IMG/VR virus record: IMGVR_UViG_3300024982_000007
Span: 1-40,139 of that record
Strand: one strand, 5' to 3'
DNA from: a virus
Length of the DNA stretch: 40,139 nt
Positions within the stretch are counted from its first letter, which is position 1; every line of letters begins with the position of its first letter. The position numbers and the translations under genes were made by a program. The notes under the pieces were generated by a model, which saw only the letters and a program-made list of their open reading frames with translations, did no database searches and was not told the DNA's origin. Below, piece by piece: positions 25,548-40,139 of the stretch.

Positions 25548-25579
25548 ATACTTTCCTCTATTTGTTTATTTACTATAAC

Positions 25580-26018: not shown

Positions 26019-26019
26019 A

Positions 26020-26271
26020 ATGAAAATCAACCAAGAAGATTATATTAAACTTCGCACAGCAATAGAATCCTTAGATATTTCCTTAGTGCAAAGTCATTAT
26101 GATTTGCTTAAAACTAATTTTATGGTAAAAGATTTAGCTCTTAGATTCCGTTGGGATTTATTATATGCAACTAGGGTAGATTTACTGGAGATGTATACAT
26201 ATTTAGATGATAGCCATATTGATACTGCTTTAAAACAAATAGTTAAAGAACTTAGATTGGGGCAACTATGA
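26020..26271 (+). CDS. Small conserved-type phage protein, 83 residues
   Basis: It begins MKINQEDYIKLRTAIESL. The pattern LRFRWDLLYAT and the end YLDDSHIDTALKQIVKEL (DDxHIDTALR-like) recur in small uncharacterised phage proteins. GGAGAG precedes the ATG, which comes 1 nt after the upstream stop. Function unknown. Confidence 0.6.
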   Translation: MKINQEDYIKLRTAIESLDISLVQSHYDLLKTNFMVKDLALRFRWDLLYATRVDLLEMYTYLDDSHIDTALKQIVKELRLGQL

Positions 26272-26345
26272 ACATATTCTATCTTGACGAAGACCCAAAG
26301 CTTGGGTTAAGTTTAAATTGCAAAAATATTATAAATAAGCTATAG
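26268..26345 (+). pseudogene. Truncated MNIFYLD-family gene, 25 codons
   Basis: The frame opens MNIFYLDEDPKLGLSLNCKN. I recognise the start of a common phage family that reads MNIFYLDxDP...HCDKHVVKMILE; here the cysteine/lysine/isoleucine pattern is recognisable but the frame stops after 25 residues instead of well over 100. Its ATG overlaps the upstream stop (ATGA). Probably a deletion remnant that may still be translated. Confidence 0.55.
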
Positions 26346-26354
26346 GAGAAAAAA

Positions 26355-26726
26355 ATGAACAATCTACACATGCAAAAACTATACTTTGTTTCTCAAACAG
26401 AAAAGAAACGTAAACACTTCCGGTTCAAAGTTCGTGAAGTCTTAAAAACTCTTTCAGAAGAGAGTTTTACCTTGCTAGCAATAGAGTGTTTGCATAGCAA
26501 CCATTATCCTATTCTTGAAGAGTATATTCGACTGTCTTTGGACTGGAAAGAACTCCCACATAAAGATAAATCCTGTTATAGAAAGTCAAAATCCATCAAT
26601 GATACGTTGTATCTATTAAAGAGTCATAGGAAGACTATTGTAAATATTCTAACAGGATTTGAACCTGACGGTTATAGTCCTGAAGTAGTAGAATGGTTAG
26701 TTGTTAATGATTTTTGGAGAGTGTGA
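26355..26726 (+). CDS. Unknown 123-residue protein
   Basis: A basic, mostly helical protein beginning MNNLHMQKLYFVSQTEKKRK, with a hydrophobic core near residues 30-55 and the ending VVEWLVVNDFWRV. No family recognised. ATAGGAGAA precedes the ATG. Its TGA overlaps the next ATG (TGATG). Confidence 0.5.
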   Translation: MNNLHMQKLYFVSQTEKKRKHFRFKVREVLKTLSEESFTLLAIECLHSNHYPILEEYIRLSLDWKELPHKDKSCYRKSKSINDTLYLLKSHRKTIVNILTGFEPDGYSPEVVEWLVVNDFWRV

Positions 26727-27013
26727 TGGAAGATATTGTAATAAAGTTAGATAGAGTCTCAGATAAAAACAAGTGGGAAAGAGTCAGGCTCTTACAACAA
26801 TGGTTAGATACCAAAGGTATTCCTTATAGTATCTATAATATGAATACACATATCAAGATAGTTCATAAAGACTACCATAGTATAGATATTTGGCCGACTA
26901 CAATTAAAGCTCATATAGCGCATTATGATGGTAAAAGAACTTCTTTAGACTCATGGAATAGCATAATAACTTTTTTAACTACTTTGGAATTTTTTTATGA
27001 ACCTTATCTATAA
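26726..27013 (+). CDS. Unknown 95-residue protein
   Basis: The start is placed at the ATG overlapping the upstream stop (preceded by GGAGAG), not at the TTG four codons earlier. The protein reads MEDIVIKLDRVSDKNKWERV..., mixed alpha/beta, ending FFYEPYL. No family recognised. Confidence 0.5.
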   Translation: MEDIVIKLDRVSDKNKWERVRLLQQWLDTKGIPYSIYNMNTHIKIVHKDYHSIDIWPTTIKAHIAHYDGKRTSLDSWNSIITFLTTLEFFYEPYL

Positions 27014-27326
27014 ATACTACCCAGAAGATTCATCAGTTGTTGAAGACGATTTTAATATTCCTATCACAATAAATTATATCTGCCTTGAAATAGAGTTTAC
27101 AGTTGATAAAGCTGAAAAACAATCAAAATTTTTTCCTGGAGAACTTGGAGAAATAAAGATAGAATCTATTAGTATCCTATATATAACATGTTTTGAGTTT
27201 CCTGAGCTAAAAATATATGTTCTAGGGGATCAAAAAGATATACTAGAAGCTTTAGTTGATTCATATGAATTATACGATATACTTCGGGAAGCTTGGAGGA
27301 AAGAAAATGAAAAATTGCAAAACTAG
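26997..27326 (+). CDS. Unknown 109-residue acidic protein
   Basis: Begins MNLIYKYYPEDSSVVEDDFN; beta-rich core and an acidic helical end (LVDSYELYDILREAW). It overlaps the upstream gene by 17 nt and the next by 20 nt. No family recognised. Confidence 0.5.
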   Translation: MNLIYKYYPEDSSVVEDDFNIPITINYICLEIEFTVDKAEKQSKFFPGELGEIKIESISILYITCFEFPELKIYVLGDQKDILEALVDSYELYDILREAWRKENEKLQN

Positions 27327-27441
27327 ATTTATCATTATTAAAGGTAATCTTGAGTGTAGAACAAATCTTCTAGGTGTTGTAAGAATACTCCAAAGACTTG
27401 GATGGAAAGTAAAACATAATGAACTTAGTGAATTAATTTAG
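27307..27441 (+). CDS. Unknown 44-residue basic peptide
   Basis: Begins MKNCKTRFIIIKGNLECRTN and contains LLGVVRILQRLGWKVK. The start at 27307 is supported by GGAGG 7 nt upstream; the longer frame from 27256 starts at a TTG without such a site. Function unknown. Confidence 0.45.
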   Translation: MKNCKTRFIIIKGNLECRTNLLGVVRILQRLGWKVKHNELSELI

Positions 27442-27451
27442 GGGAAAAGAG

Positions 27452-27727
27452 ATGAAAGCAATAACCACAGAAATAGATAAACATCATCCGAGATTAGAGA
27501 TAACATCTACATTACAGATAATAGTATCTCCAGAGCACCTTGCAGAACTTTTTTGGAACATGGAGTCAGCAGAGCAAGCACTGGTTTTTAACCATCTTGC
27601 AGAAATAGCACATTCATTACCTATGCAGCTACAGTTTGTTACTGATAGTGAGGAACTTACACTAAAAGGAAGAGGAGTTATGAGACTTATAGGAGAGTAT
27701 AGTATAGGAGAACATCATGACATTTAA
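27452..27727 (+). CDS. Small conserved-type phage protein, 91 residues
   Basis: Begins MKAITTEIDKHHPRLEI. The segment LAELFWNMESAEQALVFNHL followed by LPMQLQFV and GRGVMRLIGEY matches a small uncharacterised phage family by recall. Its stop overlaps the helicase start; AGGAG within its end serves the helicase. Confidence 0.6.
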   Translation: MKAITTEIDKHHPRLEITSTLQIIVSPEHLAELFWNMESAEQALVFNHLAEIAHSLPMQLQFVTDSEELTLKGRGVMRLIGEYSIGEHHDI

Positions 27728-29642
27728 AAGACCAATCATACAGACACAAGAAAGAAAGAGTTTCACTCCTACAGCGGAGCAAGTAGTAAATAAAGACCTT
27801 GTGCTTGGAGGAAATGATGTAAAGATAGTAGCTGGAGCTGGATCAGGAAAGTCTTCATCTCTTAGATATATCGCAAGCTGCTATCCTGAGAAACAATTTC
27901 TTGTCCTATGTTTCAATTCTGCAAATGCTAAAGAGAGTAATGCTCATGCAGAACGACCAGAGAATATTGTCTATTCAACAGGCCATAGTCTAGCGTACCG
28001 CGCAATCATGGACTATAAGATGAGGAATAAACTCTCTAAGTCCGGACTACTTTACAGTGATCTGGAAGAGTTCTATTTATATCAATTTGCTCCTCAAGGA
28101 GAAAGTGAGAAGGAATGGAAGGATAATATTAGAATTATCACAAAAGAAGTCTTGCAGACGGTAGAGTATTTTTGTCGTTCTAGTGCTATTGATATAGACA
28201 CATTTAGCCTTAACAGATTAGTTTATATTTTCAGCAGTAAATCTCCTGAAGAGAATATAGGAAGACTTATACTAGAAGACAATATTATTAGAGCTTTAGT
28301 AGACAATGTAAAGACTTATTGGAATAATCTTATTAATTCTAACCATCCTGCAAAAATAACACATGACGTATACTTAAAACTCTATGATCTTAGAGAAATA
28401 TCTGTAGATGAAGTATGGGATGATAGGGCTAAAGCCTATGTTAGTGTGGATGTACTATGTCTCGATGAGAGTCAGGACACGAATCCTGTAATGGAGAGTA
28501 TCTTCCGTAGGCAATCACACTTACAACGTATCATTGTAGGAGATCCGAACCAGCAACTCTATGCTTGGAGAGGTGCTAATGATATGATGAAATTACCGTA
28601 CTATAGTGATTTCACTACAGGGTATCTGACGGAGAGTTTCCGATTCAACCAAGGTATTGCAGATAAAGCGAATGTAGTTCTTGAGGCACTGCAAGCAGAC
28701 CTAAGGATTGTTGGTTCAGGGAGTAAAACTGAGATAGATAGTAGAGCGATTCTTTGTAGAACAAATGCTAGTGTGGTAGAGAGGATATTTGATAACATTG
28801 ACTCTGGCAAATCTATCTATACAAGTATTAATACTTCAGAAGTATTCAGTAAACTATTTCATCTTGAAGCATGTTATTATAACAATCTTCCAAAATACCC
28901 TTGTAAAGAGCTTTCACATATAGTTGATAGAGAGAGCTTAGAGAAAGCAGTTGAATACTCTGATGAACTCCAAAGACTACTACGTTTACAAAAGAGTCTT
29001 GTGAAGACGAGAACCTTGTGGCAAGCAAAGCAACTCCTTGAGAAGAGTCTTGTTAAGACACAGGAAGAAGCTGACATTGTAATCACTACATGTCATGCTT
29101 CTAAAGGAATGGAGTATGCTCACGTTACTATTGATGATGATTTTCTTGTTATCATGGATGATGAAACTACACAGGATGCAGTTGAAAGACTCTATGAGAC
29201 TGAGAGTCTACTCTGTTTACTTTATGTGTCGTTGACAAGAGCACAAGTAGAGGTGGAATATCCTTGGTATTTGAAAAGTATGTTCGACAAGTATGAGGAA
29301 CTTGATGAAGGAGAAATGGAAGAAGTAGATAATTTGATGAAAACAATAGCTACGTTTGATAACATAGTTCAAAACGCTCCTTATGTTGTATATAGACTCT
29401 ACGACCATAATAAAACTCTTCTATTCATTGGTGTTACATGTAATCTTGGTAATAGATTAAAACAGCATGTTAGAGTAGATGATTGGTTTGGTGAGGTATG
29501 TTTGAATAATATTGAAACGGTTGGGTATGGAGATAGGAATAGCGGGTATGAAGGTAGAAGAGAAGCTTTACTTTCGAGTGAACCATTGTATAAAGGTATA
29601 TATCAGACTGATAAGGTATTTGAAGATAATGTGAATTATTGA
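27717..29642 (+). CDS. UvrD/Rep-like SF1A helicase with C-terminal GIY-YIG-like domain
   Basis: A 641-residue protein. Residues ~15-540 are an SF1A helicase: Walker A AGAGSGKSSS (39-48), motif II LCLDESQD, motif III VGDPNQQLYAWRGA, motif V TTCHASKGMEY and motif VI LYVSLTRAQ. Residues ~554-641 read VYRLYDHNKTLLFIG, then a spaced arginine in LGNRLKQH and a glutamate in RREALLSSEP, the order of GIY-YIG nuclease residues (Tyr, Phe/Tyr-Ile-Gly, Arg, Glu). One polypeptide could thus unwind and nick DNA. The helicase assignment is firm, nuclease activity is inferred. Confidence 0.85.
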   Translation: MTFKRPIIQTQERKSFTPTAEQVVNKDLVLGGNDVKIVAGAGSGKSSSLRYIASCYPEKQFLVLCFNSANAKESNAHAERPENIVYSTGHSLAYRAIMDYKMRNKLSKSGLLYSDLEEFYLYQFAPQGESEKEWKDNIRIITKEVLQTVEYFCRSSAIDIDTFSLNRLVYIFSSKSPEENIGRLILEDNIIRALVDNVKTYWNNLINSNHPAKITHDVYLKLYDLREISVDEVWDDRAKAYVSVDVLCLDESQDTNPVMESIFRRQSHLQRIIVGDPNQQLYAWRGANDMMKLPYYSDFTTGYLTESFRFNQGIADKANVVLEALQADLRIVGSGSKTEIDSRAILCRTNASVVERIFDNIDSGKSIYTSINTSEVFSKLFHLEACYYNNLPKYPCKELSHIVDRESLEKAVEYSDELQRLLRLQKSLVKTRTLWQAKQLLEKSLVKTQEEADIVITTCHASKGMEYAHVTIDDDFLVIMDDETTQDAVERLYETESLLCLLYVSLTRAQVEVEYPWYLKSMFDKYEELDEGEMEEVDNLMKTIATFDNIVQNAPYVVYRLYDHNKTLLFIGVTCNLGNRLKQHVRVDDWFGEVCLNNIETVGYGDRNSGYEGRREALLSSEPLYKGIYQTDKVFEDNVNY

Positions 29643-29693
29643 TTAAACAGATAGAAGAAAATGAAAGTAAATATTTTATAACAGGTTAAGATT

Positions 29694-29747
29694 ATGACTA
29701 AGATAGATGATAAACTTAATCGTAGTATTAAAAAGGAGATTCTTTAA
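29694..29747 (+). CDS. 17-codon leader-like ORF
   Basis: Starts ATGACTAAGATAG after a GGTTAAGA sequence and ends at the ATG of the next gene. The AAGGAG used by the next gene lies inside it, so its translation could influence that start. Very weak as a gene. Confidence 0.25.
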   Translation: MTKIDDKLNRSIKKEIL

Positions 29748-29975
29748 ATGAAAATAGAACAAATAACATATCTCTGCGATTGTTGTAGGAAAACTCTAAC
29801 TAATGAAGAAATAAAATTCGCAACTTCAGAACAAAATTCTATACATATTATCTCTATCACTTATGATGTCTGGTATGGAGGAGTCTTTAAGATACGCGAT
29901 ATATGTACGGACTGTAGGAGCAAGATAGTAAAATTTTTAAAAAACGAAAATATGTTAAGAGGACAGAAACAATGA
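29748..29975 (+). CDS. Small protein with two CxxC pairs
   Basis: A 75-residue protein with CDCCRK near residue 10 and CTDC near residue 53, a four-cysteine zinc-binding layout. AAGGAG precedes the ATG and the stop overlaps the next start. Possibly nucleic-acid binding; no family named. Confidence 0.55.
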   Translation: MKIEQITYLCDCCRKTLTNEEIKFATSEQNSIHIISITYDVWYGGVFKIRDICTDCRSKIVKFLKNENMLRGQKQ

Positions 29976-30814
29976 CAAAATATGTAAGAACAAACTATGT
30001 GCCTGAAAGACATAAAAAATTACTGACAGTAGGAAAACTTTATGAAATTATAGATGAAGGAATGTGTCAAGAGATTATAAATGATATTGGGAAATCTATC
30101 TTGATATATCTACCACACTGTGCATATTTAGATGATAAATCTTGGGAAGTAGTAGAAATTAACGAGGAAGAGGAAGCAAAGATAAAAGAAAGAGAATTGA
30201 AAGTTGGTGATTATGTTAAAGTAATAAAGGATGAAAAACGTCAATTCGGACTGAATTCTATTATAGAGCCTTTTGTAAATAAGGTATATAAAATTGTGAG
30301 TGTTAAAGGACAGTCATACATTCTTGACATTCCTTCCAATGTACTTACATACTATTTTGCTAGAGATAGCTTGGAGTTAGTAGAAGGAAAAATACAACAA
30401 GGTTGCTCACATGTAGACCTTATCCTTGAGTATGCAAAAGACTGTCAGAAGTATAAAAAACCTTGGTTGTTATGGCAACATTGTGAAGATGGGGGGATAT
30501 GGGAAGACTTTCCAGAATACTACGGGCATTTAATGTGGAACAGTAAGAGTCACTATAGACGTAGACCTTCTTCAATTAATATTAATGGTTTTGAAGTACC
30601 AGAACCATTAAGAGAGGTTCCTAAAGAAAGAATTGCAGTTTATCTGTCTTGGATTTACCACAAAGATTATTTTATCAAAATTTATTGGGATAACAGTAAT
30701 CTCAGTCACCAAAAATGGTTGGCTAGAGGATTACTCCATTTATTAAGAGAATCTGCAATTTATCATACAAAAGCACTACTTTCATTTACAGAGATTCCTA
30801 ATGTCAACAACTAA
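29972..30814 (+). CDS. Phage protein with SH3-like segment and conserved YRRRP tail
   Basis: A 280-residue protein. Residues ~75-137 (LKVGDYVKVI...VYKIVSV...) look like an SH3-type beta barrel. The second half contains KPWLLWQHCEDGGIWED, MWNSKSHYRRRPSSININGFEVPEP, a module repeatedly seen in phage early proteins of unknown function. ATG overlaps the upstream stop (CAATGA). Role unknown. Confidence 0.6.
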   Translation: MTKYVRTNYVPERHKKLLTVGKLYEIIDEGMCQEIINDIGKSILIYLPHCAYLDDKSWEVVEINEEEEAKIKERELKVGDYVKVIKDEKRQFGLNSIIEPFVNKVYKIVSVKGQSYILDIPSNVLTYYFARDSLELVEGKIQQGCSHVDLILEYAKDCQKYKKPWLLWQHCEDGGIWEDFPEYYGHLMWNSKSHYRRRPSSININGFEVPEPLREVPKERIAVYLSWIYHKDYFIKIYWDNSNLSHQKWLARGLLHLLRESAIYHTKALLSFTEIPNVNN

Positions 30815-30941
30815 TTTTATATTTGCATGTATCGCTATAGTGATTATATTTATCTTTTCTAATTTATACTCAAATCCGTGTAGTGCATTTCGACCAGATA
30901 CTTTTTGCAGTATGTTTATGCAGGAGGGTGAAGAGAGATGA
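30801..30941 (+). CDS. 46-residue single-span membrane peptide
   Basis: Begins MSTTNFIFACIAIVIIFIFS: a hydrophobic span at about residues 6-21 followed by a polar tail with two cysteines. It overlaps the upstream gene end, and AGGAGGG near its 3' end is the ribosome-binding site of the next gene. Function unknown. Confidence 0.45.
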   Translation: MSTTNFIFACIAIVIIFIFSNLYSNPCSAFRPDTFCSMFMQEGEER

Positions 30942-31267
30942 TAGAAAAATATACAAATGAGTTCGGAAAGGTATGGTATCGTGGTGTAACTTCTGAAACA
31001 CCATTTACAGACTTAGAGTTCTACAAATGCCCGGAACAATTCGAAGATAATGTACTATACGCTTTGCATACTAATCTAGGAAGTCTAACTGTTCTTGATA
31101 GAATGACTGGCTTTGGCTACAGGGATACTGAGACAGGGTATAGAGATATGGAAGGTAATTTCTGGTTAGCTTTAGGTATGCAGGATGTTAGAAAAAGTAA
31201 ATCAACTACGATGCAAGAAGCTATCGATTGGGTAAAGAAAAATGCAAATAATTATCTCGGAGTCTAA
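30938..31267 (+). CDS. Conserved-type phage protein, 109 residues
   Basis: Begins MIEKYTNEFGKVWYRGVTSE, with LTVLDRMTGFGYRDTETGYRD and FWLALGMQDVR. This glycine/aspartate-rich core is familiar from uncharacterised early phage proteins. AGGAGGG is well placed before the ATG. Function unknown. Confidence 0.65.
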   Translation: MIEKYTNEFGKVWYRGVTSETPFTDLEFYKCPEQFEDNVLYALHTNLGSLTVLDRMTGFGYRDTETGYRDMEGNFWLALGMQDVRKSKSTTMQEAIDWVKKNANNYLGV

Positions 31268-31285
31268 TAAATTTTATTTAAATAC

Positions 31286-31314
31286 TTGTGTAAAAAATAA
31301 ACCTTCTGTATAAT
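31286..31314 (+). promoter_or_regulatory. Promoter before the 213-residue gene
   Basis: TTGTGT, 17 nt, consensus TATAAT, ending 57 nt before the ATG. It can separately drive the 213-residue gene and possibly the tRNA cluster. Confidence 0.7.
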
Positions 31315-31371
31315 AACCACATCAATTAGAAATTCTCTGATTGAATTAAAACCAACTTTGAGGACTCCAAA

Positions 31372-32013
31372 ATGACCGAAGAAAACACAAACGTAGAAGT
31401 AACCGAAACTCCAATTAAAGCAGTTGTTTCAAACATCGTCACTATGGAAAATGGTGAAAACATTGATTTCGGTAAATCTGGTAAAATAAAAGCATCATAT
31501 GATGTTGCAACATCTACTATTACTTTCAAAACTGTTGTTGGTTCAATCATCAACTACGTTGTAGATGGATTAGATAATTTATCAGACTTTCAAAAAGAAG
31601 TCTACCTATACGGCGTAATGGAGAAAATTAAATCTACTCTTGCACCAACTAAAATAGAAGACCTTGAGGCAAAGATAAATAAACAGATTGAAGAAGTTAA
31701 ATCTGGTGTGTTTACTACAAGAACAATGGATAGTACTGTAGAACTAAGCGATTTTCTAAAAGCTTTTGCTATTATTAACGCTACACAGAGATTATTTACC
31801 CCTATGGGTTATGTTGATGTTGCAATGCCAGTAGAAGCTTTAAAAGTTACTGAATTACAACCACATTGGGTTAATGTAAATAATTCAGAAGTTATTAAAG
31901 AAGTATCAGATTTCTGGACTGCATTGCCTAAAGGAGAAAAATCAGCACAAAGAGGGAATAGCTTTGTAAAAGCACAACTTAGTTTCATTGAAAATAACCT
32001 TGTTACCTTGTAG
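31372..32013 (+). CDS. Unknown 213-residue protein with its own promoter
   Basis: The protein begins MTEENTNVEVTETPIKAVVS and has ENGENIDFGKSGKIKASYD, a lysine/glutamate helix (KIEDLEAKINKQIEEV) and a C-terminal ALPKGEKSAQRGNSFVKAQL. I recall similar phage proteins in early regions but cannot name a function. Its own strong promoter and tidy codon use suggest high expression, as for an SSB-like or abundant accessory protein; this is speculation. Confidence 0.6.
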   Translation: MTEENTNVEVTETPIKAVVSNIVTMENGENIDFGKSGKIKASYDVATSTITFKTVVGSIINYVVDGLDNLSDFQKEVYLYGVMEKIKSTLAPTKIEDLEAKINKQIEEVKSGVFTTRTMDSTVELSDFLKAFAIINATQRLFTPMGYVDVAMPVEALKVTELQPHWVNVNNSEVIKEVSDFWTALPKGEKSAQRGNSFVKAQLSFIENNLVTL

Positions 32014-32043
32014 ACTCTAAATTTAGGACTATATTTAAGATAG

Positions 32044-32110
32044 ACTTTAGTATTATCAGTGAGAATAGTGTGCGGCAACGCTTCTGTGCATTACACTGGA
32101 TTACTAAAGT
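32044..32110 (+). ncRNA. Structured RNA element ahead of the tRNA cluster
   Basis: ACTTTAGTA at the 5' end pairs with TACTAAAGT at the 3' end (9 bp), enclosing AGTGT/ACACT and a GCG-GCAA-CGC hairpin with a GNRA tetraloop. It lacks a T-loop, so it is not a normal tRNA. The 5' strand can alternatively pair with CTAAAGT at 32135-32141. It may be an RNA-processing element or a decayed tRNA. Confidence 0.45.
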
Positions 32111-32144
32111 TTCCTCTTTGAAAGCCTAGAAGGTCTAAAGTTTT

Positions 32145-32225
32145 GGAAGATAGCGTACAGGGTACAAACAAGTCTTGAAAACTTGGCTAACCGAAAGGTT
32201 AATGGTTCGATTCCTTTATCTTCCG
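32145..32225 (+). tRNA. tRNA-Ser(UGA)
   Basis: The acceptor GGAAGAT/ATCTTCC is perfect over 7 bp. The anticodon arm is CAAGT-CTTGAAA-ACTTG with anticodon TGA. A variable arm (GCTAACC...GGTTAA) and a TTCGATT T-loop follow. The T-stem has one T-T mismatch and the D-arm is poor, so the gene may be slightly degraded. CCA is not encoded. Confidence 0.8.
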
Positions 32226-32235
32226 TATCTATATT

Positions 32236-32310
32236 GCCTATGTGCAGGGAATGGTTACTGACTGGACTGCAAATCCGGTGATGCTGGTTCGAATCCAGTC
32301 ATAGGCTCCA
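32236..32310 (+). tRNA. tRNA-Cys(GCA)
   Basis: Acceptor GCCTATG/CATAGGC, anticodon arm CTGGA-CTGCAAA-TCCGG with anticodon GCA, T-arm CTGG-TTCGAAT-CCAG, the discriminator T expected for cysteine and an encoded CCA. All arms fold well. Confidence 0.92.
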
Positions 32311-32315
32311 ATCTA

Positions 32316-32401
32316 GGAGAGTTACGTTAACGGTAAACGGACAGTTTGCTAAACTGTTGACCTAATGGGTCTTATAGGTTCGAGTCCTATACTCTCCGCC
32401 A
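32316..32401 (+). tRNA. tRNA-Ser(GCU)
   Basis: Acceptor GGAGAGT/ACTCTCC, D-stem CGTT/AACG, anticodon arm ACAGT-TTGCTAA-ACTGT with anticodon GCT, long variable arm GACC/GGTC, T-arm ATAGG-TTCGAGT-CCTAT, discriminator G and encoded CCA. Its last 13 nt (32389-32401) lie inside the inverted repeat, so the repeat boundary falls at the edge of the acceptor stem. Confidence 0.93.
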
Positions 32402-32523
32402 CCTTCCTCTAATCCCATCCGTTTCCTAGTATCGTACAAACTAGGTCAACTTCATTCTATCTTACAGATTCTACCTACAACTACACAACTTCATTATATA
32501 GTATTCCGCTCACATCTTCCCTC

Positions 32524-32786
32524 CTTCCGGCGACCCAGCCGCATTAATCCGCTCACTGCCCGCATTACCCGATCACTACCCAAAATCCCTTTAAATTCCG
32601 GTAAAATACGCCTCACCACGCCCCGATCTACCCACACCGCCCTACCACACAGGCCTACAAAATCGCCCCGCAAACCTCAAAATCTAAATAACACCGTTTA
32701 ATTAAATCGTCTGGCGACCAACTACACTAATAGCATATCTTCCGGCGACCTGACTTCGTTATATACTTTCACTCCTTCTGGCGACC
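32524..32786 (+). repeat. Four dispersed copies of a 12-bp motif
   Basis: CTTCCGGCGACC at 32524-32535 and 32739-32750, CTTCTGGCGACC at 32775-32786, and CGTCTGGCGACC at 32708-32719. All have the same orientation. The three clustered copies are 31 and 36 bp apart, close to three helical turns, which suits cooperative protein binding. No further copy was noticed outside the arms. Confidence 0.7.
32539..32580 (+). repeat. Imperfect 21-bp tandem repeat
   Basis: CCGCATTAATCCGCTCACTG is followed after 21 bp by CCGCATTACCCGATCACTAC, with a related TTCCGCTCAC just upstream near 32505. It directly abuts the first 12-bp motif. Confidence 0.6.
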
Positions 32787-33024
32787 TAGGGTTATTAATA
32801 CATGTACATGTGCCTGTATACCAAGGCGGTTGGACAGCAGGTGTAAATGAGGAGGATGCGTTGAAGCCGTGGCGGAGATGATGTCAGGGAGTGGTATAGA
32901 TGAATAGAAAGATGATGTCAGGTGTCCAGCTCAGGGTATGATATAGATGTCAAGCTAGTCAGGTAGGGCAGGGCAGGGTAGGTAGGGTAGTATGATAATC
33001 TTGTTTGCATGTATAAAAAAAAGA

Positions 33025-33054
33025 TTGACATTGCTTATAGATTTGATCTAAACT
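33025..33054 (+). promoter_or_regulatory. Promoter of the lipoprotein gene
   Basis: Consensus TTGACA, 18 nt, TAAACT, about 38 nt before the ATG at 33092. It is probably the start of the plasmid-like block, independent of read-through from the unique region. Confidence 0.65.
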
Positions 33055-33091
33055 ATGTCCAACTTAAACAGATTTACACGGAGAGACTCTC

Positions 33092-33220
33092 ATGAAAACT
33101 TTACTTATACTTGCTATCATCATCTCTACTCTATTTGCATGTAATGCTCTTGTAGAAAGTTTTAAAGACAGCTTGACATCTCATATAGAGATAGTTGAGA
33201 ATAGCACATCAAATTTATAA
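33092..33220 (+). CDS. Small lipoprotein, 42 residues
   Basis: The peptide begins MKTLLILAIIISTLFACNAL: a basic residue, a hydrophobic core and the lipobox LFAC, so signal peptidase II should leave Cys17 as the lipidated N-terminus of a ~26-residue tail. The size and design resemble plasmid bacteriocin-release (lysis) lipoproteins and entericidins, but the tail has no recognisable similarity. It has its own strong promoter and a GGAGAG ribosome-binding site. Role unknown; a lysis or envelope function is a guess. Confidence 0.6.
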   Translation: MKTLLILAIIISTLFACNALVESFKDSLTSHIEIVENSTSNL

Positions 33221-33235
33221 CAATTGGAGAAGGAA

Positions 33236-33499
33236 ATGAAAAGAGGAGAAGCAATCGATGCTATAATAGCTATGGCAGTTGATATGGTCGTAATATCAAA
33301 ACTAGATGATAGACATTTAACGGAGTTTTATATCTTTGTACAATCAGAATTTTTAGCAACTGAATTAATACGTCGTTTTAACGGGTCAGAGTTAGTTGAC
33401 CATTTTTACCAACGGTCATTTAGTAATTTGAGTTATTTAAACTACGGAAATAGGTCTATGTGTGTTATTGGATTTGATAGAGTCGATAGAGTCGATTAG
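33236..33499 (+). CDS. Unknown 87-residue protein
   Basis: The start is placed at ATG 33236 behind GGAGAAGG rather than the TTG at 33224. It begins MKRGEAIDAIIAMAVDMVVI; the first half is helical and hydrophobic, the second polar, ending in a short DRVDRVD repeat encoded by a tandem gatagagtc repeat. No family recognised. Confidence 0.55.
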   Translation: MKRGEAIDAIIAMAVDMVVISKLDDRHLTEFYIFVQSEFLATELIRRFNGSELVDHFYQRSFSNLSYLNYGNRSMCVIGFDRVDRVD

Positions 33500-33503
33500 A
33501 CTA

Positions 33504-33536
33504 ATCAAGTTATAGTTGTCTCGACTATAGCTTGAT
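33504..33536 (+). other. 13-bp stem hairpin between genes
   Basis: ATCAAGTTATAGT pairs with ACTATAGCTTGAT (one T-G wobble in RNA) around the 7-nt loop TGTCTCG. It lies 4 nt after a stop codon and 51 nt before the next start. Without a T-run it is more likely an RNA-stability, processing or antisense-type element than a terminator. Confidence 0.65.
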
Positions 33537-33587
33537 GCAATCTAGCATCGAAGGCAATAATGCCAACTAATTTACAAGGTGAATACA

Positions 33588-34370
33588 ATGACTACTCAAA
33601 CACAAACATCATTAGATTTTTTCAAAACCTTCTATCGTGTAACTAACGACGACGGACGGCTTAATAGCCTTGCAGTTGCTCAGTGTGCAGCTCTCGATAC
33701 TTATTACACAGAGTTATCATATAATGATAACATCCTCACTGCACGGCGTGTATCAGATGGTACAATCGAGACACTATCCCCTATTCGCTTACTTGGTCTC
33801 GTATCTAATGCTGGTGCTAAAATACCGGCTTTTGAAAGTCAATTCTGGAAAGCTGGTGCGGTTAACAACAAATTTAAACCTTTAGATGGTACAAAACCTT
33901 CTGAAGTGAGTACCACTCCACTTATCGGCCACTACCTAACCGCTGAAGCATTCGAGCGGCAGTCTTACATAGAATTACTTGATTTAGTGGAACTTGTTAC
34001 AGTGATTAAATCATTACGTGATACTGATACTAAAGCGGCTATATTTGCACGCTTGCAGGATGCAATATCACTACCATCCGATAGACAGGCTGCGATTGAT
34101 GAGGCATACCGCAAAGAAGCTGGTGTACAAGCTGCAATGCTTGCGCTTACACCTTACCTTGAAGCACTAAAAGCTTCTAGTGATAAATCCCTTACAGGTT
34201 GCGTGCGTCTTGATCTGGACCCAGATGCTACTCAAGCACTGCAAACCTTAACTAATAAAGATAATGGTATGTATCCGCTAACCTCTATCAATGTCCAACC
34301 TGCTCGCATGGACGGATTCATTCAAGTATCACCTGCGAGATACTTCCTCACCCTATCTATAAAAGACTAA
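33588..34370 (+). CDS. Unknown 260-residue protein
   Basis: The protein begins MTTQTQTSLDFFKTFYRVTN and is alpha/beta without membrane spans or recognisable motifs. A helical, alanine-rich middle (AAIFARLQDAISL...AAMLALTPYLEALKAS) precedes a strand-rich end (VQPARMDGFIQVSPARYFLTL). Codon use looks less AT-biased than the phage replication genes, suggesting a separate origin. AAGGTG precedes the ATG. A short hairpin AAAGAC-TAA-GTCTTT overlaps the stop. Confidence 0.65.
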   Translation: MTTQTQTSLDFFKTFYRVTNDDGRLNSLAVAQCAALDTYYTELSYNDNILTARRVSDGTIETLSPIRLLGLVSNAGAKIPAFESQFWKAGAVNNKFKPLDGTKPSEVSTTPLIGHYLTAEAFERQSYIELLDLVELVTVIKSLRDTDTKAAIFARLQDAISLPSDRQAAIDEAYRKEAGVQAAMLALTPYLEALKASSDKSLTGCVRLDLDPDATQALQTLTNKDNGMYPLTSINVQPARMDGFIQVSPARYFLTLSIKD

Positions 34371-34394
34371 GTCTTTGCTTCAACAACTATAATA

Positions 34395-34413
34395 GGTGGG
34401 ATACATTCCCACC
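34395..34413 (+). promoter_or_regulatory. Hairpin just ahead of a ribosome-binding site
   Basis: GGTGGGA pairs with TCCCACC over 7 bp around a 5-nt loop, ending 3 nt before GGAGG of the 33-residue gene. It may shield or stabilise the leader and tune translation. Confidence 0.45.
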
Positions 34414-34424
34414 TTGGAGGATCG

Positions 34425-34526
34425 ATGTACTTACCGAAATTTAACCGTGATAGTGTCTTACTGATACTATCGTATATTATCATCGCGGCTATCCAAGCCG
34501 TTGTCATTGTAGGATTCCTGTCATGA
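34425..34526 (+). CDS. 33-residue single-span membrane peptide
   Basis: Begins MYLPKFNRDSVLLILSYIII; a hydrophobic span covers about residues 11-32. A perfect GGAGG precedes the ATG and the stop overlaps the next start (ATGA). No homologue recognised. Confidence 0.55.
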   Translation: MYLPKFNRDSVLLILSYIIIAAIQAVVIVGFLS

Positions 34527-34777
34527 TTATTTTAAGAAAGGTCAATCAAATATACCCTGTTTACAAACTGTATCATCATCTTACAGGGGCGGTCTATCTT
34601 TGTAGTCAGCTAGTTGACGGCTTGCCAGGGTACCGTCTTATTATTGCAGACGTGTACAAAGTGCATGCTTACTTTGACACTATACAGTATGTTTGGATTG
34701 TTCAATCAAATAGTGTGACTCTTGTACAATCCTTGCTTGCTGGTCAACAATTCATCGTAACGGAGCGTGTATTATGA
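34523..34777 (+). CDS. Unknown 84-residue protein, first of two paralogues
   Basis: Begins MIILRKVNQIYPVYKLYHHL. Its segment CSQ(x6)GY(x2)I(x9)YxD(x2)Q(x2)W is shared without gaps with the next protein. It is predicted mostly beta. Overlaps at both ends indicate coupled translation. No family recognised. Confidence 0.6.
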   Translation: MIILRKVNQIYPVYKLYHHLTGAVYLCSQLVDGLPGYRLIIADVYKVHAYFDTIQYVWIVQSNSVTLVQSLLAGQQFIVTERVL

Positions 34778-35040
34778 ATCTTAAACAGATAAAGTCACTC
34801 TTCAGTGATTATGCAAAGCATATACAGGTTGATCGTAAACAGTTGTTTATCTGTTCACAACGAATCCCTAATGATTCAGGGTATAATAAAATCCTTGTAT
34901 CATATCGTATGATAGTAGGTTACTATGATGATGTACAAGCTTGCTGGGTGCTTACTCGTGAGAAGTATTCTCGTACAACAAGTAAGCAAATCACACAATT
35001 TGCGCGCTGGCGTAATGTTATCTACGTAGATAGTCTTTGA
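34774..35040 (+). CDS. Unknown 88-residue protein, second of two paralogues
   Basis: Begins MNLKQIKSLFSDYAKHIQVD. It shares Cys-Ser-Gln, Gly-Tyr, Ile, Tyr-x-Asp, Gln and Trp at matched spacing with the 84-residue protein, so the pair arose by tandem duplication. A basic C-terminal stretch distinguishes it. The parS-like site starts 2 nt after its stop. Confidence 0.6.
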   Translation: MNLKQIKSLFSDYAKHIQVDRKQLFICSQRIPNDSGYNKILVSYRMIVGYYDDVQACWVLTREKYSRTTSKQITQFARWRNVIYVDSL

Positions 35041-35041
35041 T

Positions 35042-35057
35042 TGTTTCACATGGAACA
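35042..35057. other. parS-like 16-bp site
   Basis: The minus strand reads TGTTCCATGTGAAACA, 15 of 16 identical to TGTTCCACGTGAAACA, a site bound by ParB/Spo0J. The near-palindrome lies directly upstream of a promoter. No ParA or ParB gene is in the window, so a host ParB or one encoded beyond the window would be needed. Confidence 0.5.
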
Positions 35058-35079
35058 CAGTATGTTGTTAAAATAATTC

Positions 35080-35109
35080 TTGACATACTCTGTCATTTGC
35101 GATTATCCT
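35080..35109 (+). promoter_or_regulatory. Promoter of the 89-residue gene
   Basis: TTGACA, 18 nt, TATCCT; 23 bp after the parS-like site and 48 nt before the ATG at 35157. Confidence 0.55.
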
Positions 35110-35156
35110 ATAGTCAAGTTAAGTCAATCCTGATTTATACAACTGGAGATACCATA

Positions 35157-35426
35157 ATGTCATACGAATCATTTAAAAATGCACTTACTTACATCACTGT
35201 ACCAGTTTCTAGTACAATCATTGAGCGCTCAGATAATCGTTGCTATGATAGCCTTAAGCGTGTCTGCATCGATCATACAGTCAAACAAGCAAGATACACG
35301 CTTAATGCTGGCAATCTGCAAAGGTTAAATCAAGTTTATATTAAACTTGCAAAGGTACATGGAGCAATATCATGTACAGATGACAAACACTTTGCTCATG
35401 CAATACTTGAGATAAACTTTAGATAG
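35157..35426 (+). CDS. Unknown 89-residue protein next to the origin
   Basis: Begins MSYESFKNALTYITVPVSST. Mainly helical with a basic middle (DSLKRVCIDHTVKQARY) and a histidine-bearing end. The start follows CTGGAGA; the longer frame from 35037 is excluded because it would span the promoter and parS-like site. It could regulate replication or partition by position alone. Confidence 0.6.
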   Translation: MSYESFKNALTYITVPVSSTIIERSDNRCYDSLKRVCIDHTVKQARYTLNAGNLQRLNQVYIKLAKVHGAISCTDDKHFAHAILEINFR

Positions 35427-35742
35427 CTTTAACAACCTTGCCAAGGATGGCACCTTTATCTAGCTGTATGGTCGGTAGACTAGAAAGGTACTACCTGGAT
35501 GTTGAAACTGTATGCGTAGTGTAACTACAGCGACCAAGCGTATATATTAAATTTTCCTAGACGAAGACTAAATAAGCTATGCTTATAGAATAGAGGAGGC
35601 TTTGCCTCAGAATAGCTTATGCTAGATAGAGGATAGATTAGCTTTATATAGCTATAGCTACTCTTTTCACCACCCGCCAAATGTAATTGCAAATTACAAT
35701 GGTAGTAGTGAAAGAAAGTGTTAAATTTCAACGACTTAAGTG

Positions 35743-35786
35743 CAAAAAGGTGTAGGGTTTTTCCCAAAAAGGTGTACGGTTTTTCT
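35743..35786 (+). repeat. Two tandem 22-bp iterons
   Basis: Two head-to-tail units begin CAAAAAGGTGTA and end GGTTTTTC(C/T), differing at two positions (35755/35777 and the last base). Spacing is exactly two helical turns. The core AGGTGTA recurs in both arms of the operator at 35832-35870, as expected if Rep binds both. A hairpin GGTTTTT/AAAAACC follows. Confidence 0.75.
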
Positions 35787-35831
35787 GAAATCAAAAACCA
35801 TGCCAACTTTTAACCTATGCCACTATATAAT

Positions 35832-35870
35832 TTAAGGTGTATTATTAACTTGCTTTACCTTACACCTTAA
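35832..35870. promoter_or_regulatory. Rep autoregulation operator (inverted repeat)
   Basis: TTAAGGTGTA and TACACCTTAA form a perfect 10-bp inverted repeat with a 19-bp spacer. The second arm lies between the -35 and -10 of the rep promoter, so Rep dimers bound here should repress rep, as in other Rep_3 plasmids. Confidence 0.65.
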
Positions 35871-35878
35871 TATAAAAT
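35850..35878 (+). promoter_or_regulatory. rep promoter
   Basis: TTGCTT, 17 nt, TAAAAT, ending 23 nt before the rep ATG; CAGGAGA is the ribosome-binding site. Confidence 0.55.
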
Positions 35879-35901
35879 AAACAAAGCACTCAGGAGAATA
35901 T

Positions 35902-36564
35902 ATGGAAACTGAAATAAAACTTCACCATAACGCTATAGCGATATTTAAAGATATTGAGTTATACTCAACTAGGTTTATTAACTGTTGTCTCTTAGGGACA
36001 GGACAAGGGACTAAGTATGGAGAATATGACTACTATCCGGTGAATATATATAAGTATAAAGAAGTATGTAATCTGACACTGTCAGAGGCTTATGAAAGTG
36101 CTTTCAACATGGCAACAAAGTTAAATGAGATAAAGTTAGAGTTGAAGTTGGTTGATGGAAAGACGTTGGTGACAAATTTGATACATGGGATTGTTTACGA
36201 GAAAGAGAAGAATGTACTCTTGATAAACTGGAACAAGGACTTTATTCCATTGATTTCAGGTAATATGCTTAAAGGAACTTTTCTTATGGCAGATATAGCA
36301 ATGATAGAGGTACAGAGTACGCATAGATATGCAATGTATTTGCTTATACAAAAATATCTATGGAAGCTTGCCCGTGAGAGTAGATTCTTTCTAGGAAAAG
36401 GAGAGATTAGAGAACAATTAGGATTAAAGGGTAGTGAGTATAAACAATTCAAGGAGCTTCATAGAAGTATAATTAAACCGACGTTGAAAGACATGTATAA
36501 TAGGATTGGAGTTAGTTTGAAAACTAAGGTAGTAGGAGATAGAGTTGAGTTTACACATGTATGA
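35902..36564 (+). CDS. rep: Rep_3-superfamily plasmid replication initiator
   Basis: A 220-residue protein with the two winged-helix domains of RepB/Rep_3 initiators. The first domain has NIYKYKEVCNLTLSEAYESA, the hinge region VLLINWNKDFIPLISG, and a helix ending QSTHRYAMYLLIQKYLW (the S-x-YAxRLYEL-like signature). The second has GEIREQLGLKGSEYKQFKEL, IIKPTLKDM and VEFTHV. It should bind the iterons upstream and open the origin. It is slightly short for the family. The end overlaps the next gene. Confidence 0.82.
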   Translation: METEIKLHHNAIAIFKDIELYSTRFINCCLLGTGQGTKYGEYDYYPVNIYKYKEVCNLTLSEAYESAFNMATKLNEIKLELKLVDGKTLVTNLIHGIVYEKEKNVLLINWNKDFIPLISGNMLKGTFLMADIAMIEVQSTHRYAMYLLIQKYLWKLARESRFFLGKGEIREQLGLKGSEYKQFKELHRSIIKPTLKDMYNRIGVSLKTKVVGDRVEFTHV

Positions 36565-36979
36565 GATAACAAAGGAAGATTTACTCGGAAAATTCCCATA
36601 CTCTAAAGTCTTGCAAGGAAGCTATGGGAATGAAAAAGCTTATAGAGCTTTTAAACCAAAGGTACAGAGTATATGTAATAAGTTTAAGAAAGGAAAGGAG
36701 AGTTTTGAAGCTTGTATTATGCTCATAGACATAGAGTTAATAAAGGTTATGGAAGGTTTTCCTGAAGACTTTCCAAAAGATGAAGGATGGTATGATAAGA
36801 AATTACGTTTTGATGGGGCAGAGGTAGAAAAGAAACTAAATAGACATGGATTGAATGTAGAGATATGCAAGGTATGTAAAGTAAAATTAGAGGCTAGATA
36901 TAGAGAGGTTAGAGAAATTGAGGGAATGAAATGGGTTATTCATAAAAGATGTATGAAGGAGAAGGTGAGATATGAGTAA
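36545..36979 (+). CDS. Small protein with CxxC...HxxC zinc-site pattern
   Basis: 144 residues from a TTG at 36545, which has AGGAG 6 nt upstream; the first ATG is at 36557 but lacks a spaced ribosome-binding site. The protein has a helical first half and ends with CKVCKVKLEARYREV...KWVIHKRCMKEK, a plausible four-ligand zinc knuckle as in small phage DNA-binding proteins. It is where most differences between the two arms lie. Confidence 0.6.
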   Translation: MSLHMYEITKEDLLGKFPYSKVLQGSYGNEKAYRAFKPKVQSICNKFKKGKESFEACIMLIDIELIKVMEGFPEDFPKDEGWYDKKLRFDGAEVEKKLNRHGLNVEICKVCKVKLEARYREVREIEGMKWVIHKRCMKEKVRYE

Positions 36980-37100
36980 GGTATATGTGATTGGGGATTT
37001 ACATGGGAATTGTCTTCCAGACAGTAGGTATATCTGTGTAAGTGCTGAGAGAACAGGGCTAAGGCCGATTGAGTTGGAGAGTTTGGGAGAGATGAGATGA
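36972..37100 (+). pseudogene. Remnant of a metallophosphoesterase gene, 42 codons
   Basis: Begins MSKVYVIGDLHGNCLPD: the IGDLHGN motif is the first metal-binding motif of calcineurin-like phosphoesterases. The second half RYICVSAERTGLRPIELESL resembles the C-terminal strand of the same enzymes (VxVxxxxYRPVSLDEI-like). The catalytic middle, over 100 residues in the family, is missing. Tight overlaps at both ends suggest it is still translated. Confidence 0.55.
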
Positions 37101-37288
37101 ATGAGAGGCTATATAAACATATAAAGACAGGAAATTTATACAAGGTTCTCTACAACGCTATTGATTGTACAAATAGTAGAGATGGTGTAAGAGTTATTGT
37201 GTACTGTAAGATTGGTGAAGAAGATAAGGTATATGTACGAGATGCGAAGGAATGGGAAGAAAAGTTTAAACGAGAGGAGATGAAATGA
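37097..37288 (+). CDS. DUF1653-like small protein
   Basis: 63 residues beginning MNERLYKHIKTGNLYKVLYN. The order YKHIKTGNLY, then VLYNAIDCTNS, a VIVYCKI strand and VYVRDAKEWEEKF matches the small DUF1653 beta-barrel family (YxHxKGxxYxV...VYR...VRPxxxF). Function unknown. Confidence 0.65.
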   Translation: MNERLYKHIKTGNLYKVLYNAIDCTNSRDGVRVIVYCKIGEEDKVYVRDAKEWEEKFKREEMK

Positions 37289-37581
37289 TGAAGTATCAGA
37301 GTGAAATGTTGGGGACTTGGAAGAGATTGAGAGAGGAACAGAGGAAGATGGAGAGAACGGAAGCAGAAAGCTCTAAAGGTCCTAAGTGGAAAAAATCTCC
37401 CAAAATTGTGAAGGATAGACTAAAAGTATTAGATAAGATAGGTAGTACAAAGGAAGTTACAGATTTATCTGCTTGGAGGGATTTTGAGATAGATGGGTTT
37501 GAGTTTGAGAAGAGTGATGTAGTTGTTTGGTTTGTGTTAGTAATCGTGACGTTGGTTTGGTTGGGAGGAGGAGGAGGATGA
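37285..37581 (+). CDS. C-terminally membrane-anchored small protein
   Basis: 98 residues. The first half is basic and helical (GTWKRLREEQRKMERTE). A single hydrophobic span (VVVWFVLVIVTLVWL) is near the C-terminus, followed by five glycines encoded by a (gga)n run at 37568-37579. It has a tail-anchor layout. It ends 6 bp from the convergent late gene. No family recognised. Confidence 0.6.
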   Translation: MMKYQSEMLGTWKRLREEQRKMERTEAESSKGPKWKKSPKIVKDRLKVLDKIGSTKEVTDLSAWRDFEIDGFEFEKSDVVVWFVLVIVTLVWLGGGGG

Positions 37582-37587
37582 TACTCC

Positions 37588-37920
37588 TCAGACATCTAGC
37601 AGAAATAGTGTAAGTCCTAGTTCTGCGAGAAGATCATACGGAGGAGTGTCTGAAACAATACCTGTTGAGATTAACCCTATACAGTCTGAAAGAGTCGCAA
37701 AAGACTTTACAATATTATATAGAGTATTTGCATTGGTCATAAAAGGAATAACTCCATCATCTATCCATCCACTAGAGATGTAATAGTGGATGTTTCCAGA
37801 AAAATCATATACAGGTACTTGAAACATACCTGCACCATGTATAGGAGATAGAATTATAGCAGCTCTACGTGCAAGGTCTACATAGTTTGGATCAATTAAT
37901 ATTACTTTTTCAACATTCAT
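37588..37920 (-). CDS. Small late protein of unknown function
   Basis: 110 residues beginning MNVEKVILIDPNYVDLARRA. A hydrophobic, strand-rich middle contains GAGMFQVPVYDF and a C-terminal LLAELGLTLFLLDV. It is the last gene of the late unit, following the adhesin by 9 nt, so it may be a chaperone or tail accessory. No motif supports either. Confidence 0.6.
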   Translation of the reverse strand: MNVEKVILIDPNYVDLARRAAIILSPIHGAGMFQVPVYDFSGNIHYYISSGWIDDGVIPFMTNANTLYNIVKSFATLSDCIGLISTGIVSDTPPYDLLAELGLTLFLLDV

Positions 37921-37929
37921 AAGGTTTCC

Positions 37930-38952
37930 TTAATTATTCGTAACTGTCCAACCACGACCTTGTAGATTTGTCTTTGCAGTTAGTCCTGTTGCTGAAGGTG
38001 TAGAGTTTGTTCCACCAGTAAGATTTAATGTACCATTACTTGTACCTGCGGTATCGATTGAAACAAGGATATTATCTACACTTGTCTGCGTAAGCGCACA
38101 TCCAGTAAAGGCAGATGAAAAGTTTGTACAACCAGTTGCATCAAACATATTAGCTGGAAAAGTTGCTAGATTTGTACAACCATTCCAAGCCGTTGAACAA
38201 GATGTTACGCTCGTAGTAGTTAGTAGAGGAAAAGACGTTAAAGAAGTATTTCCATCACACATTCCCGAAAAAGAAGTTGCAGAGGATGTATTTATACTAG
38301 GGAAACTTGTTAAAGAAGTCATTCCTCTAAATGCACTAACAAAATTAGTTGTAGAACTGGTAGCAAAAACAGGAAAATTTGTAACTTTAGCAAAAATATT
38401 TCCAGAAACGGTTCCTCTAAATATATTTGATATGTTTGTTTGTGACCTATATGCACTTATTCCAGCAGGACCACCACCTATTGATTTAAAATAAGTATAA
38501 CAACGCTCTATTTCTGCACAACTCATTTCTCCTTCTCTGATTATAATTCCGACAATATCAAGTACAGGTGCATAAAGTCCTCCTACAGTATAAGTACCAG
38601 CAGGAATTGACACACCATGTGCTAGTGTTCCCAACGTAGTTGCATAAATCATAGTTCCTATAATACCACCAGTTGGTACTGTGAAACTAATAGTGTCATC
38701 AACCCTATCAAGTGTGACACGAGAGGGACTTATTTGATAAGTAGGTCTTGCTGCGGAAGTAGCTTGTGTGCCATTAATTGCGTTTGTAGTTAAGTCAGGG
38801 AAAAAACCTACAGGTTGTGCAGCTCCATTTACTGGCGTAGTTACCGTACTATCCTGATAAAGACCTGTAGTTTTTGCAAACTGCCACCAAAGGCCTTTCT
38901 GTCCTCTTTTAAAAAGGTTTTTTGGAGTCCATGAGGATTTATTCGGATACAT
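37930..38952 (-). CDS. BspA-like repeat adhesin / tail-fibre-type protein
   Basis: A 340-residue protein. Residues ~1-150 form a head region of Gly/Thr/Ala-rich strands. From ~165 on, repeats of about 20-24 residues follow the form (T)NFxSAFxGMTSLTSFPxxxT, with NTSLTSFPLL, CTNLATFPANMFDA and CTNFSSAFTGC. This is the BspA-type leucine-rich-repeat-like pattern found in phage and bacterial surface adhesins. The end (DNILVSIDTAG...GTLNLTGGTNS...LQGRGWTVTNN) is typical of phage receptor-binding or tail-associated proteins. Receptor unknown. Confidence 0.75.
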   Translation of the reverse strand: MYPNKSSWTPKNLFKRGQKGLWWQFAKTTGLYQDSTVTTPVNGAAQPVGFFPDLTTNAINGTQATSAARPTYQISPSRVTLDRVDDTISFTVPTGGIIGTMIYATTLGTLAHGVSIPAGTYTVGGLYAPVLDIVGIIIREGEMSCAEIERCYTYFKSIGGGPAGISAYRSQTNISNIFRGTVSGNIFAKVTNFPVFATSSTTNFVSAFRGMTSLTSFPSINTSSATSFSGMCDGNTSLTSFPLLTTTSVTSCSTAWNGCTNLATFPANMFDATGCTNFSSAFTGCALTQTSVDNILVSIDTAGTSNGTLNLTGGTNSTPSATGLTAKTNLQGRGWTVTNN

Positions 38953-40139
38953 TAAATATCTCTTGTATGAATAGTAAGGCGACTAACACCAGCAGATGTT
39001 GGTGTATAAGCTCCGACTGTCTGCAAAATCACGTACAGACTTGTACTAGAGAGTGTGATTTGTTTTCCAATACAGTCGTTGTCAATAAAGAGTGTACTTC
39101 CTTCATCAATTGGAACGCCAATACGAACTTTACCAAGGTATTTTCCCCTATCCCCTGAAGGTATGTCAAAGACAGCGTTATCTGCAATTGCTGTAGGAGA
39201 GGCATTGTATAGTCTCACATCAAACATATCCATACCAGAGGGTCTAGCTGACTCATCTACTTCGTATTCAATTGATGTAATCTCTACTTCTCCAGCAGCA
39301 CGAATCATAGAGGCAAAAGTAAAGATAGCAGAACCGTTTGTATCACCAATTACATCACCTGCTGTGTAAGCAGTAGTATTACTTGGACGTGTTATTGTAA
39401 CTGTTGCGCTATGTCCGTTTGAGCTATTAGTTACAGTACCAATAACTTTTGTTGTTTCTGCTGAAAGTGTAGCTGCAACAGGTATAGAAGATTGGTCAGA
39501 CGGAAGCACAACTTTTAAAGAAGTTGCCATTGTACCTTGACCAAGGGCTGTTGGAAGTAGAGCTATAAGAGAAGTTATTCTTTGAGCAACTCGTTGCAAA
39601 CGTCCATTAAGACCACTACTTGCAGTGTCAGTTCCAGGTGCAGTTTCTGTTAATCCTCCAAGGTCTGTTACAATCGTAGCTAAATTTCCTGCCTCAAGAG
39701 CTGCTCCAGTTGGAAGAGGTAAGGAAGCTGCTGATACGGCAATAGTAGATTGGTCACTTGCAACTGTGACTGCAAGACTTCCAGCCATAGTCTTCTGCCC
39801 TAGAGACGTAGGTACAAGAGCTATTAGAGAGGTTAATCTCTGAGCTACACGCTGTAGACGCCCATTTAAACCTGAACTGGCTGTATCGGTTCCAGGGGCT
39901 GTTTCAGTTACTCCTCCTACAGCTGTAATAACAGTATCTTGTTTAGTTTCTGTTGCAGGAGCTGCAATAATTTTAGCTAGAAGAGCTGCAAGAGATGTCT
40001 CTGTTGCAAAGTCCTTCGCAGCAATCGTAGATAAAGAACTATTCCCTGTGTCCTGTTTTGCTTCAGTCGCAGGAGAGGTAATAATTTTTGCCAAAATAGC
40101 TGCTGATGTTGTTTCCGTAGAAGCCCCTGTAGGTAGAGC
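38952..40139 (-). CDS. Repetitive phage structural (tail) protein, 5' end missing
   Basis: The frame is open to the window edge; at least 395 residues are visible. It contains two ~90-residue repeats (TETAPGTDTASSGLNGRLQR, VAQR(L/I)TSLIAL(V/L)PT(S/A)LGQ, then SDQS(T/S)I(A/P)V) and shorter ATEAKQDT/ATETKQDT units, a phage tail or virion-protein style. The C-terminal ~170 residues form a non-repeated beta domain (DVRLYN...DIPSGDRGKYLG). It is a probable virion component. Its start and partners lie outside the window. Confidence 0.8.
   Translation of the reverse strand, partial: ALPTGASTETTSAAILAKIITSPATEAKQDTGNSSLSTIAAKDFATETSLAALLAKIIAAPATETKQDTVITAVGGVTETAPGTDTASSGLNGRLQRVAQRLTSLIALVPTSLGQKTMAGSLAVTVASDQSTIAVSAASLPLPTGAALEAGNLATIVTDLGGLTETAPGTDTASSGLNGRLQRVAQRITSLIALLPTALGQGTMATSLKVVLPSDQSSIPVAATLSAETTKVIGTVTNSSNGHSATVTITRPSNTTAYTAGDVIGDTNGSAIFTFASMIRAAGEVEITSIEYEVDESARPSGMDMFDVRLYNASPTAIADNAVFDIPSGDRGKYLGKVRIGVPIDEGSTLFIDNDCIGKQITLSSTSLYVILQTVGAYTPTSAGVSRLTIHTRDI

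Follow-up and report, generated by a model that had tools for sequence, protein, structure and literature searches.

The DNA analyzed here (the window) is IMG/VR record IMGVR_UViG_3300024982_000007, a 40,139-base stretch from an uncultured phage-like virus. Its two ends are arms that form a 7751-bp inverted repeat (positions 1 to 7751 and 32389 to 40139), wherein 7 mismatches distinguish one arm from the other, all of them within positions 2699 to 3459 of the left arm. The arms flank a 24.6-kb core of replication and nucleotide-metabolism genes, which encode a family A polymerase (two ORFs), a ligase, a thymidylate synthase, a D12 methyltransferase, helicases, an RNA ligase, a Sak4-like ATPase, and an exonuclease. 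The polymerase region (14917–18111) is split such that a separate 97-amino-acid ORF (15873–16166) lies between the two polymerase ORFs. Each arm encodes a Rep_3 initiator and, at its outer end, a tail-like gene that is cut by the end of the contig; both outer ends stop at the same base inside this tail-like ORF. Very strong C-over-G bias is evident in the outer arm at 3044–3160 and 2501–4000 (skew about −0.5 to −0.57), and this bias exceeds that of the motif stretch described below. No terminase, portal, or capsid protein was recognized among 27 different window proteins, each scanned against at least one library.

On the right, the inverted repeat begins at position 32389, inside the 3′ end of a plus-strand tRNA-Ser (GCT) gene (32316–32401). 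On the left, arm sequence supplies the last codons and the stop of a 134-amino-acid ORF (7728–8132). The first member of the tRNA cluster, at 32144–32226, is called tRNA-Ser(TGA) by ARAGORN and gives in Rfam only a sub-threshold match to tRNA-Sec (33.8 bits versus 47).

Scans with the core, as well as a search with a 20-bp element discussed below, recovered a single relative, the 24,981-base contig IMGVR_UViG_3300024979_000019 from another sample. This contig spans window positions 7625–32515, with identities of 99.98% over 7625–20105, 99.9% over 20106–27704, and 99.07% over 27705–32515. At 27704/27705, where the identity drops to 99.07%, the relative has about 90 additional bases just before the UvrD-like helicase ORF. 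Both ends of the relative carry the same 127 arm bases in inverted orientation, a pattern expected where a short-read assembly graph, apparently of word length 127, runs up against an inverted repeat. Because the relative ends at both junctions with inverted arm bases, both core/arm junctions are present in a second, slightly different strain, and the inverted repeat of the arms is probably real. The relative retains the junction and stops at the equivalent of position 32515, 9 bases before the first motif of the array described below. Two phages, ctMlz233 (MW202489) and Microcystis phage Mel-JY34 (PP438425), have a replication half (polymerase, nuclease, AAA, helicase) similar to the core, but they lack a long inverted repeat, and neither common arm proteins nor a common motif region was detected by tblastx.

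A directional motif array in a gene-poor stretch

Between the tRNA-Ser gene and a 42-amino-acid ORF that begins at 33092 lie 690 bp (32402–33091) without a convincing gene, for which an identical mirror copy exists in the left arm (7049–7738). The longest ORF in this stretch encodes 59 amino acids (32494–32673, minus strand), and a stop-free run of this length arises in 133 of 1000 shuffled sequences. Thus, the initial annotation was justified in calling the region gene-free, and a small gene is unlikely given that no ORF is longer than chance allows. A structured RNA was likewise rejected, as neither half of the stretch folds better than its shuffled versions (z scores of 0.05 and 0.15) and no RNA family beyond the tRNAs is found in Rfam.

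The stretch carries four 12-bp copies of the CTTCYGGCGACC type, each of which includes GGTCGCC on the minus strand, and all four point in one direction. On the minus strand, copy 1 (32524–32535) and copy 3 (32739–32750) read GGTCGCCGGAAG, copy 2 (32708–32719) reads GGTCGCCAGACG, and copy 4 (32775–32786) reads GGTCGCCAGAAG. Their start-to-start spacing is irregular, at 184, 31, and 36 bp. The motifs point toward the core; on the right they run antisense to the tRNA cluster, on the left to the 134-amino-acid ORF.

The four same-strand copies are present as initially annotated, and their clustering exceeds chance. In the 399 nucleotides from 32402 to 32800, the expected count of GGCGACC is 0.011; among 5000 dinucleotide shuffles the maximum was one copy, and none reached four. 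A test open to any word is less extreme, with some 7-mer reaching at least four copies in 9 of 1000 shuffles. Similarly, four-member families of 12-mers with no more than two mismatches appear in 2 of 500 shuffles and in 14 of 243 core windows of 400 nucleotides, the latter mostly AT-rich or of low complexity. When three mismatches are allowed, the 12-mer occurs 15 times in the window versus 14.5 expected, such that the enrichment is gone and no additional diverged copies can be counted.

Across the whole window, GGTCGCC is found 8 times versus 0.50 expected from whole-window shuffles. The four sites account for half of these 8 occurrences and their mirror images in the opposite arm for the rest, and therefore only 4 are independent. 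The motifs had been described as occurring at both junctions, and indeed the two copies of 32389–33100 are identical. However, this is one fact rather than two: duplication of the entire flanking arm is the sole reason that the motif region occurs on both sides of the core, and the identical mirror copies add no evidence. Nor does the array lie exactly where the arms meet the core, as had been proposed, since the junction at 32389 is inside tRNA-Ser, and 135 bp of arm sequence separate it from the nearest motif.

Larger imperfect duplications partly overlap the repeats, as exemplified by 32517–32548 and 32768–32799, which match at 78%, and the motif is the best-kept part of these duplications. 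A possible −10-like box, TATATAA-NGAAGT, follows copies 1 and 4, near the latter and further from the former, whereas none follows copies 2 and 3.

Adjoining the first motif is the tandem repeat of about 21 bp that had been noted previously (32539–32581; unit 20–21 bp, period 20, 2.1 copies, 82% matches, score 56). An array this strong is equaled or beaten in 1 of 1000 shuffles, and within the window it ranks second, behind the iteron-like pair upstream of rep described below. The strong strand bias reported for the stretch is also borne out. G/C skew is −0.519 over 32402–32792 and +0.533 over 32820–33000, and the reversal occurs near 32778–32820, with the cumulative G−C minimum at 32778. The left-hand value by itself is not unique, as 76 of 3200 sliding 390-nucleotide windows over positions 1–32388 attain it. 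Near the reversal, a perfect 12-bp palindrome, ACATGTACATGT, can be read from the sequence (32801–32812), and a plus-strand G-quadruplex motif sequence at 32966–32987 has no counterpart elsewhere in the window except its mirror copy.

The GC content of the stretch is 44.8%, versus 17–34% at coding third positions and 22–39% in core intergenic gaps of at least 80 bp. The intergenic values rest on a hand-picked gene list that includes a 53-amino-acid ORF at 25860 and the 42-amino-acid ORF, and no others under 60 amino acids. Other intergenic gaps of the arm are also GC-rich (0.356–0.453), so the elevated GC content may characterize the arm as a whole. AT-rich patches are nonetheless found within the stretch, for example TTTAATTAAA.

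A 20-bp element, ATTTAATTAAACGGTGTTAT, lies on the minus strand at 32688–32707, where it overlaps no motif and ends 1 bp from copy 2. Its second copy is on the plus strand at 25692–25711, within the divergent intergenic region of the core (25548–25859), and the two copies are identical at 19 of 20 positions. The gapped score of this match (17.5) was equaled in none of 1000 shuffles; when 103 overlapping core pieces were compared, it was attained solely by the two that contain 25692–25711. By an ungapped test, 19 of 20 identities were reached in none of 60 shuffles, and 18 of 20 in 4 of 60. In viral_contigs, the element is found only in the relative contig. This link between arm and core is new beyond the initial annotation.

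The Rep_3 gene of the arm and searches for relatives

The arm protein encoded at 35902–36564 (mirror copy 3576–4238) matches both the N and the C domains of Rep_3 above the Pfam cut-offs, and its best plasmid match is a replication protein. Directly upstream of rep are two 22-bp iteron-like repeats (35743–35786), of which no further copies within three mismatches were found, followed by an inverted, operator-like pair containing GGTGTA (35832–35870) before the rep start. This upstream region (35743–35870) is mirrored at 4270–4397. Together, the Rep_3 gene and its upstream repeats constitute a predicted plasmid-type origin on a phage-like contig. The possibility that the motif array is the Rep_3 iteron array was rejected, as the 22-bp repeats are separate from and unlike the motif, and the array is about 3 kb from rep. 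No family match was obtained for the adjacent 91- and 263-amino-acid proteins, and a single-sequence structure model of the latter was unusable (pLDDT 49). Among the arm proteins scanned, no partition ATPase, actin-like, or adaptor protein was recognized.

Protein scans of viral_contigs and genome_contigs with the 263-amino-acid protein and Rep yielded no arm relative, and the outer arm end gave no match as an exact 50-base pattern. The motif-array pattern occurred in 42 stretches of viral_contigs, all of which were compared with the window by tblastx. Only two matched, and these share common enzymes only (UvrD helicase in stretch L020 and thymidylate synthase in L032). The sole low-GC stretch among the 42 (L039, 33% GC) was judged unrelated; its motif falls within a coding gene that neighbors a terminase-like gene. 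A longer motif pattern returned 4 stretches of 60–64% GC, none with a tblastx match to the window, so that these sequence searches revealed no motif-bearing relative. At the DNA level, the 690-bp stretch matched 4 phage records, the best over 36 bases at 88.9%, which we take to be chance, and it matched nothing in plasmids. The sequence of the motif stretch is therefore without a match in the viral contigs, phages, and plasmids searched. Literature searches found no account of a phage with this architecture or motif, a result that does not establish its absence from print.

Candidate functions of the motif stretch

The findings support the presence of a same-direction array of sites of a protein-binding type, embedded in a gene-poor and strand-asymmetric stretch. 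Most likely, the four 12-bp sites would be recognized by one sequence-specific DNA-binding protein, which would load with a single orientation on each arm, and the 21-bp repeats and the 20-bp element may provide the same control circuit with additional sites. We tentatively favor the reading, at a probability of roughly 0.35, that the stretch acts in cis as a DNA control region for replication or maintenance (an auxiliary origin, a copy-control site, or a centromere-like site) of a virus that encodes Rep_3.

Comparison with known systems reveals both likenesses and differences. As in Rep_3 plasmid iteron origins, short same-direction repeats are found in a segment that encodes a Rep_3 initiator. 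However, the repeats of such origins are about 17–22 bp long, regular, and helically phased, whereas those observed here are 12 bp at spacings of 31, 36, and 184 bp. The repeats of iteron origins also adjoin rep and are related to its operator, in contrast to the present array, which is remote from rep and unlike rep's own repeats. As described previously, such origins include an AT-rich unwinding element and DnaA boxes, with DnaA optional for some hosts (PMC4980987). Here the GC content is high apart from the AT-rich patches, and no DnaA box was found in the stretch by exact search or between 32094 and 34808 at one mismatch. Partition (centromere) sites composed of direct repeats are known in plasmids and phage-plasmids, and the array resembles them in that its short direct repeats lie close to a replication module yet outside it; the difference is that no par-type protein was recognized among the arm proteins scanned.

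The earlier proposal of a second origin survives as a possibility. In bidirectional origins generally, the skew reverses such that the leading strands are G-rich on both sides. The same sense of reversal is seen here, although it is local, extending over a few hundred bases, and the 20-bp element is held in common with the divergent region of the core. The lack of DnaA boxes, the GC richness, and the dissimilarity to the iteron-like repeats of rep speak against that proposal, and the irregular spacing of the motifs and their distance from rep weigh on the replication or maintenance reading as a whole. A more specific form is that each arm has its own bidirectional origin, GC-rich, oppositely G-skewed, and equipped with a G-quadruplex sequence and a directional array, which would suit RNA-primed (R-loop) initiation. 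The genome would then be a plastid-like inverted-repeat genome with two mirror origins that face the core, in addition to its Rep_3 plasmid origin. We regard this combination as quite improbable.

Alternatively, the motifs could serve as operators or promoter elements under a phage regulator whose action extends to the divergent promoter region of the core. The 20-bp element recurs in what is the main divergent intergenic region of the core, the −10-like boxes after copies 1 and 4 could mark promoters, and a promoter-like pair (33025–33054) precedes the 42-amino-acid ORF. Transcription control ranks only slightly below replication or maintenance in probability. Against it, the motifs are antisense to the flanking tRNA cluster and 134-amino-acid ORF, the TATATAA box is at unequal distances and missing after two of the copies, and a promoter scan gave no minus-strand site within 32402–33024. 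The 20-bp element suits transcription and replication or maintenance alike. Replication or maintenance is favored over promoter function because of the plasmid-type initiator of the arm, the skew reversal in the origin sense, and the absence of a gene on the downstream side to which the motifs point. It is unlikely that the stretch has no selected function and represents foreign or degenerate DNA whose asymmetry derives from past transcription and whose repeats arose by slippage or duplication. This view retains some weight because the other gaps of the arm are also GC-rich; it is further consistent with the position of the repeats partly within larger imperfect duplications, with the lack of RNA structure or family beyond tRNAs, and with the lack of a DNA match in phages or plasmids beyond chance. 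However, the motif is what these duplications keep best, and the 20-bp element is common to a distant noncoding site.

The initial annotation also entertained a binding array for a recombinase. Such an array would make or flip the arm/core junction. The array is indeed in the arm and close to the junction, and the junction falls within the 3′-terminal part of a tRNA gene, a usual target of integration. Even so, the 135 bp that separate junction and motif, together with the lack of any integrase or resolvase match among the window proteins scanned, render this function very unlikely. Moreover, inverted arms can simply recombine by homology. Xer/dif sites consist of two 11-bp half sites with a 6–8-bp spacer, and no dif-like site stands out, the best matches to the dif consensus having 6 mismatches in 22 and falling outside the stretch. 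Least probable of all is a packaging signal, for which a gene-poor, repeat-rich stretch is the only point in favor. With two copies in each genome there would be two cutting sites, and the lack of a terminase or capsid protein recognized among the window proteins scanned suggests that the packaging module is elsewhere.

Directional repeat arrays in phage and plasmid control regions are of a known kind, and nothing in the tests conducted sets the mechanism of the present array apart. By itself, the motif array is an ordinary kind of regulatory DNA. The genome architecture, with long inverted arms around a replication core and backed by a second contig, is less usual; it is a separate finding and the more interesting lead. 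Should the array prove to control replication or maintenance, it would reveal how a virus that has both plasmid-type and phage-type replication genes, and whose replication core is flanked by long inverted repeats, is copied or switches between modes.
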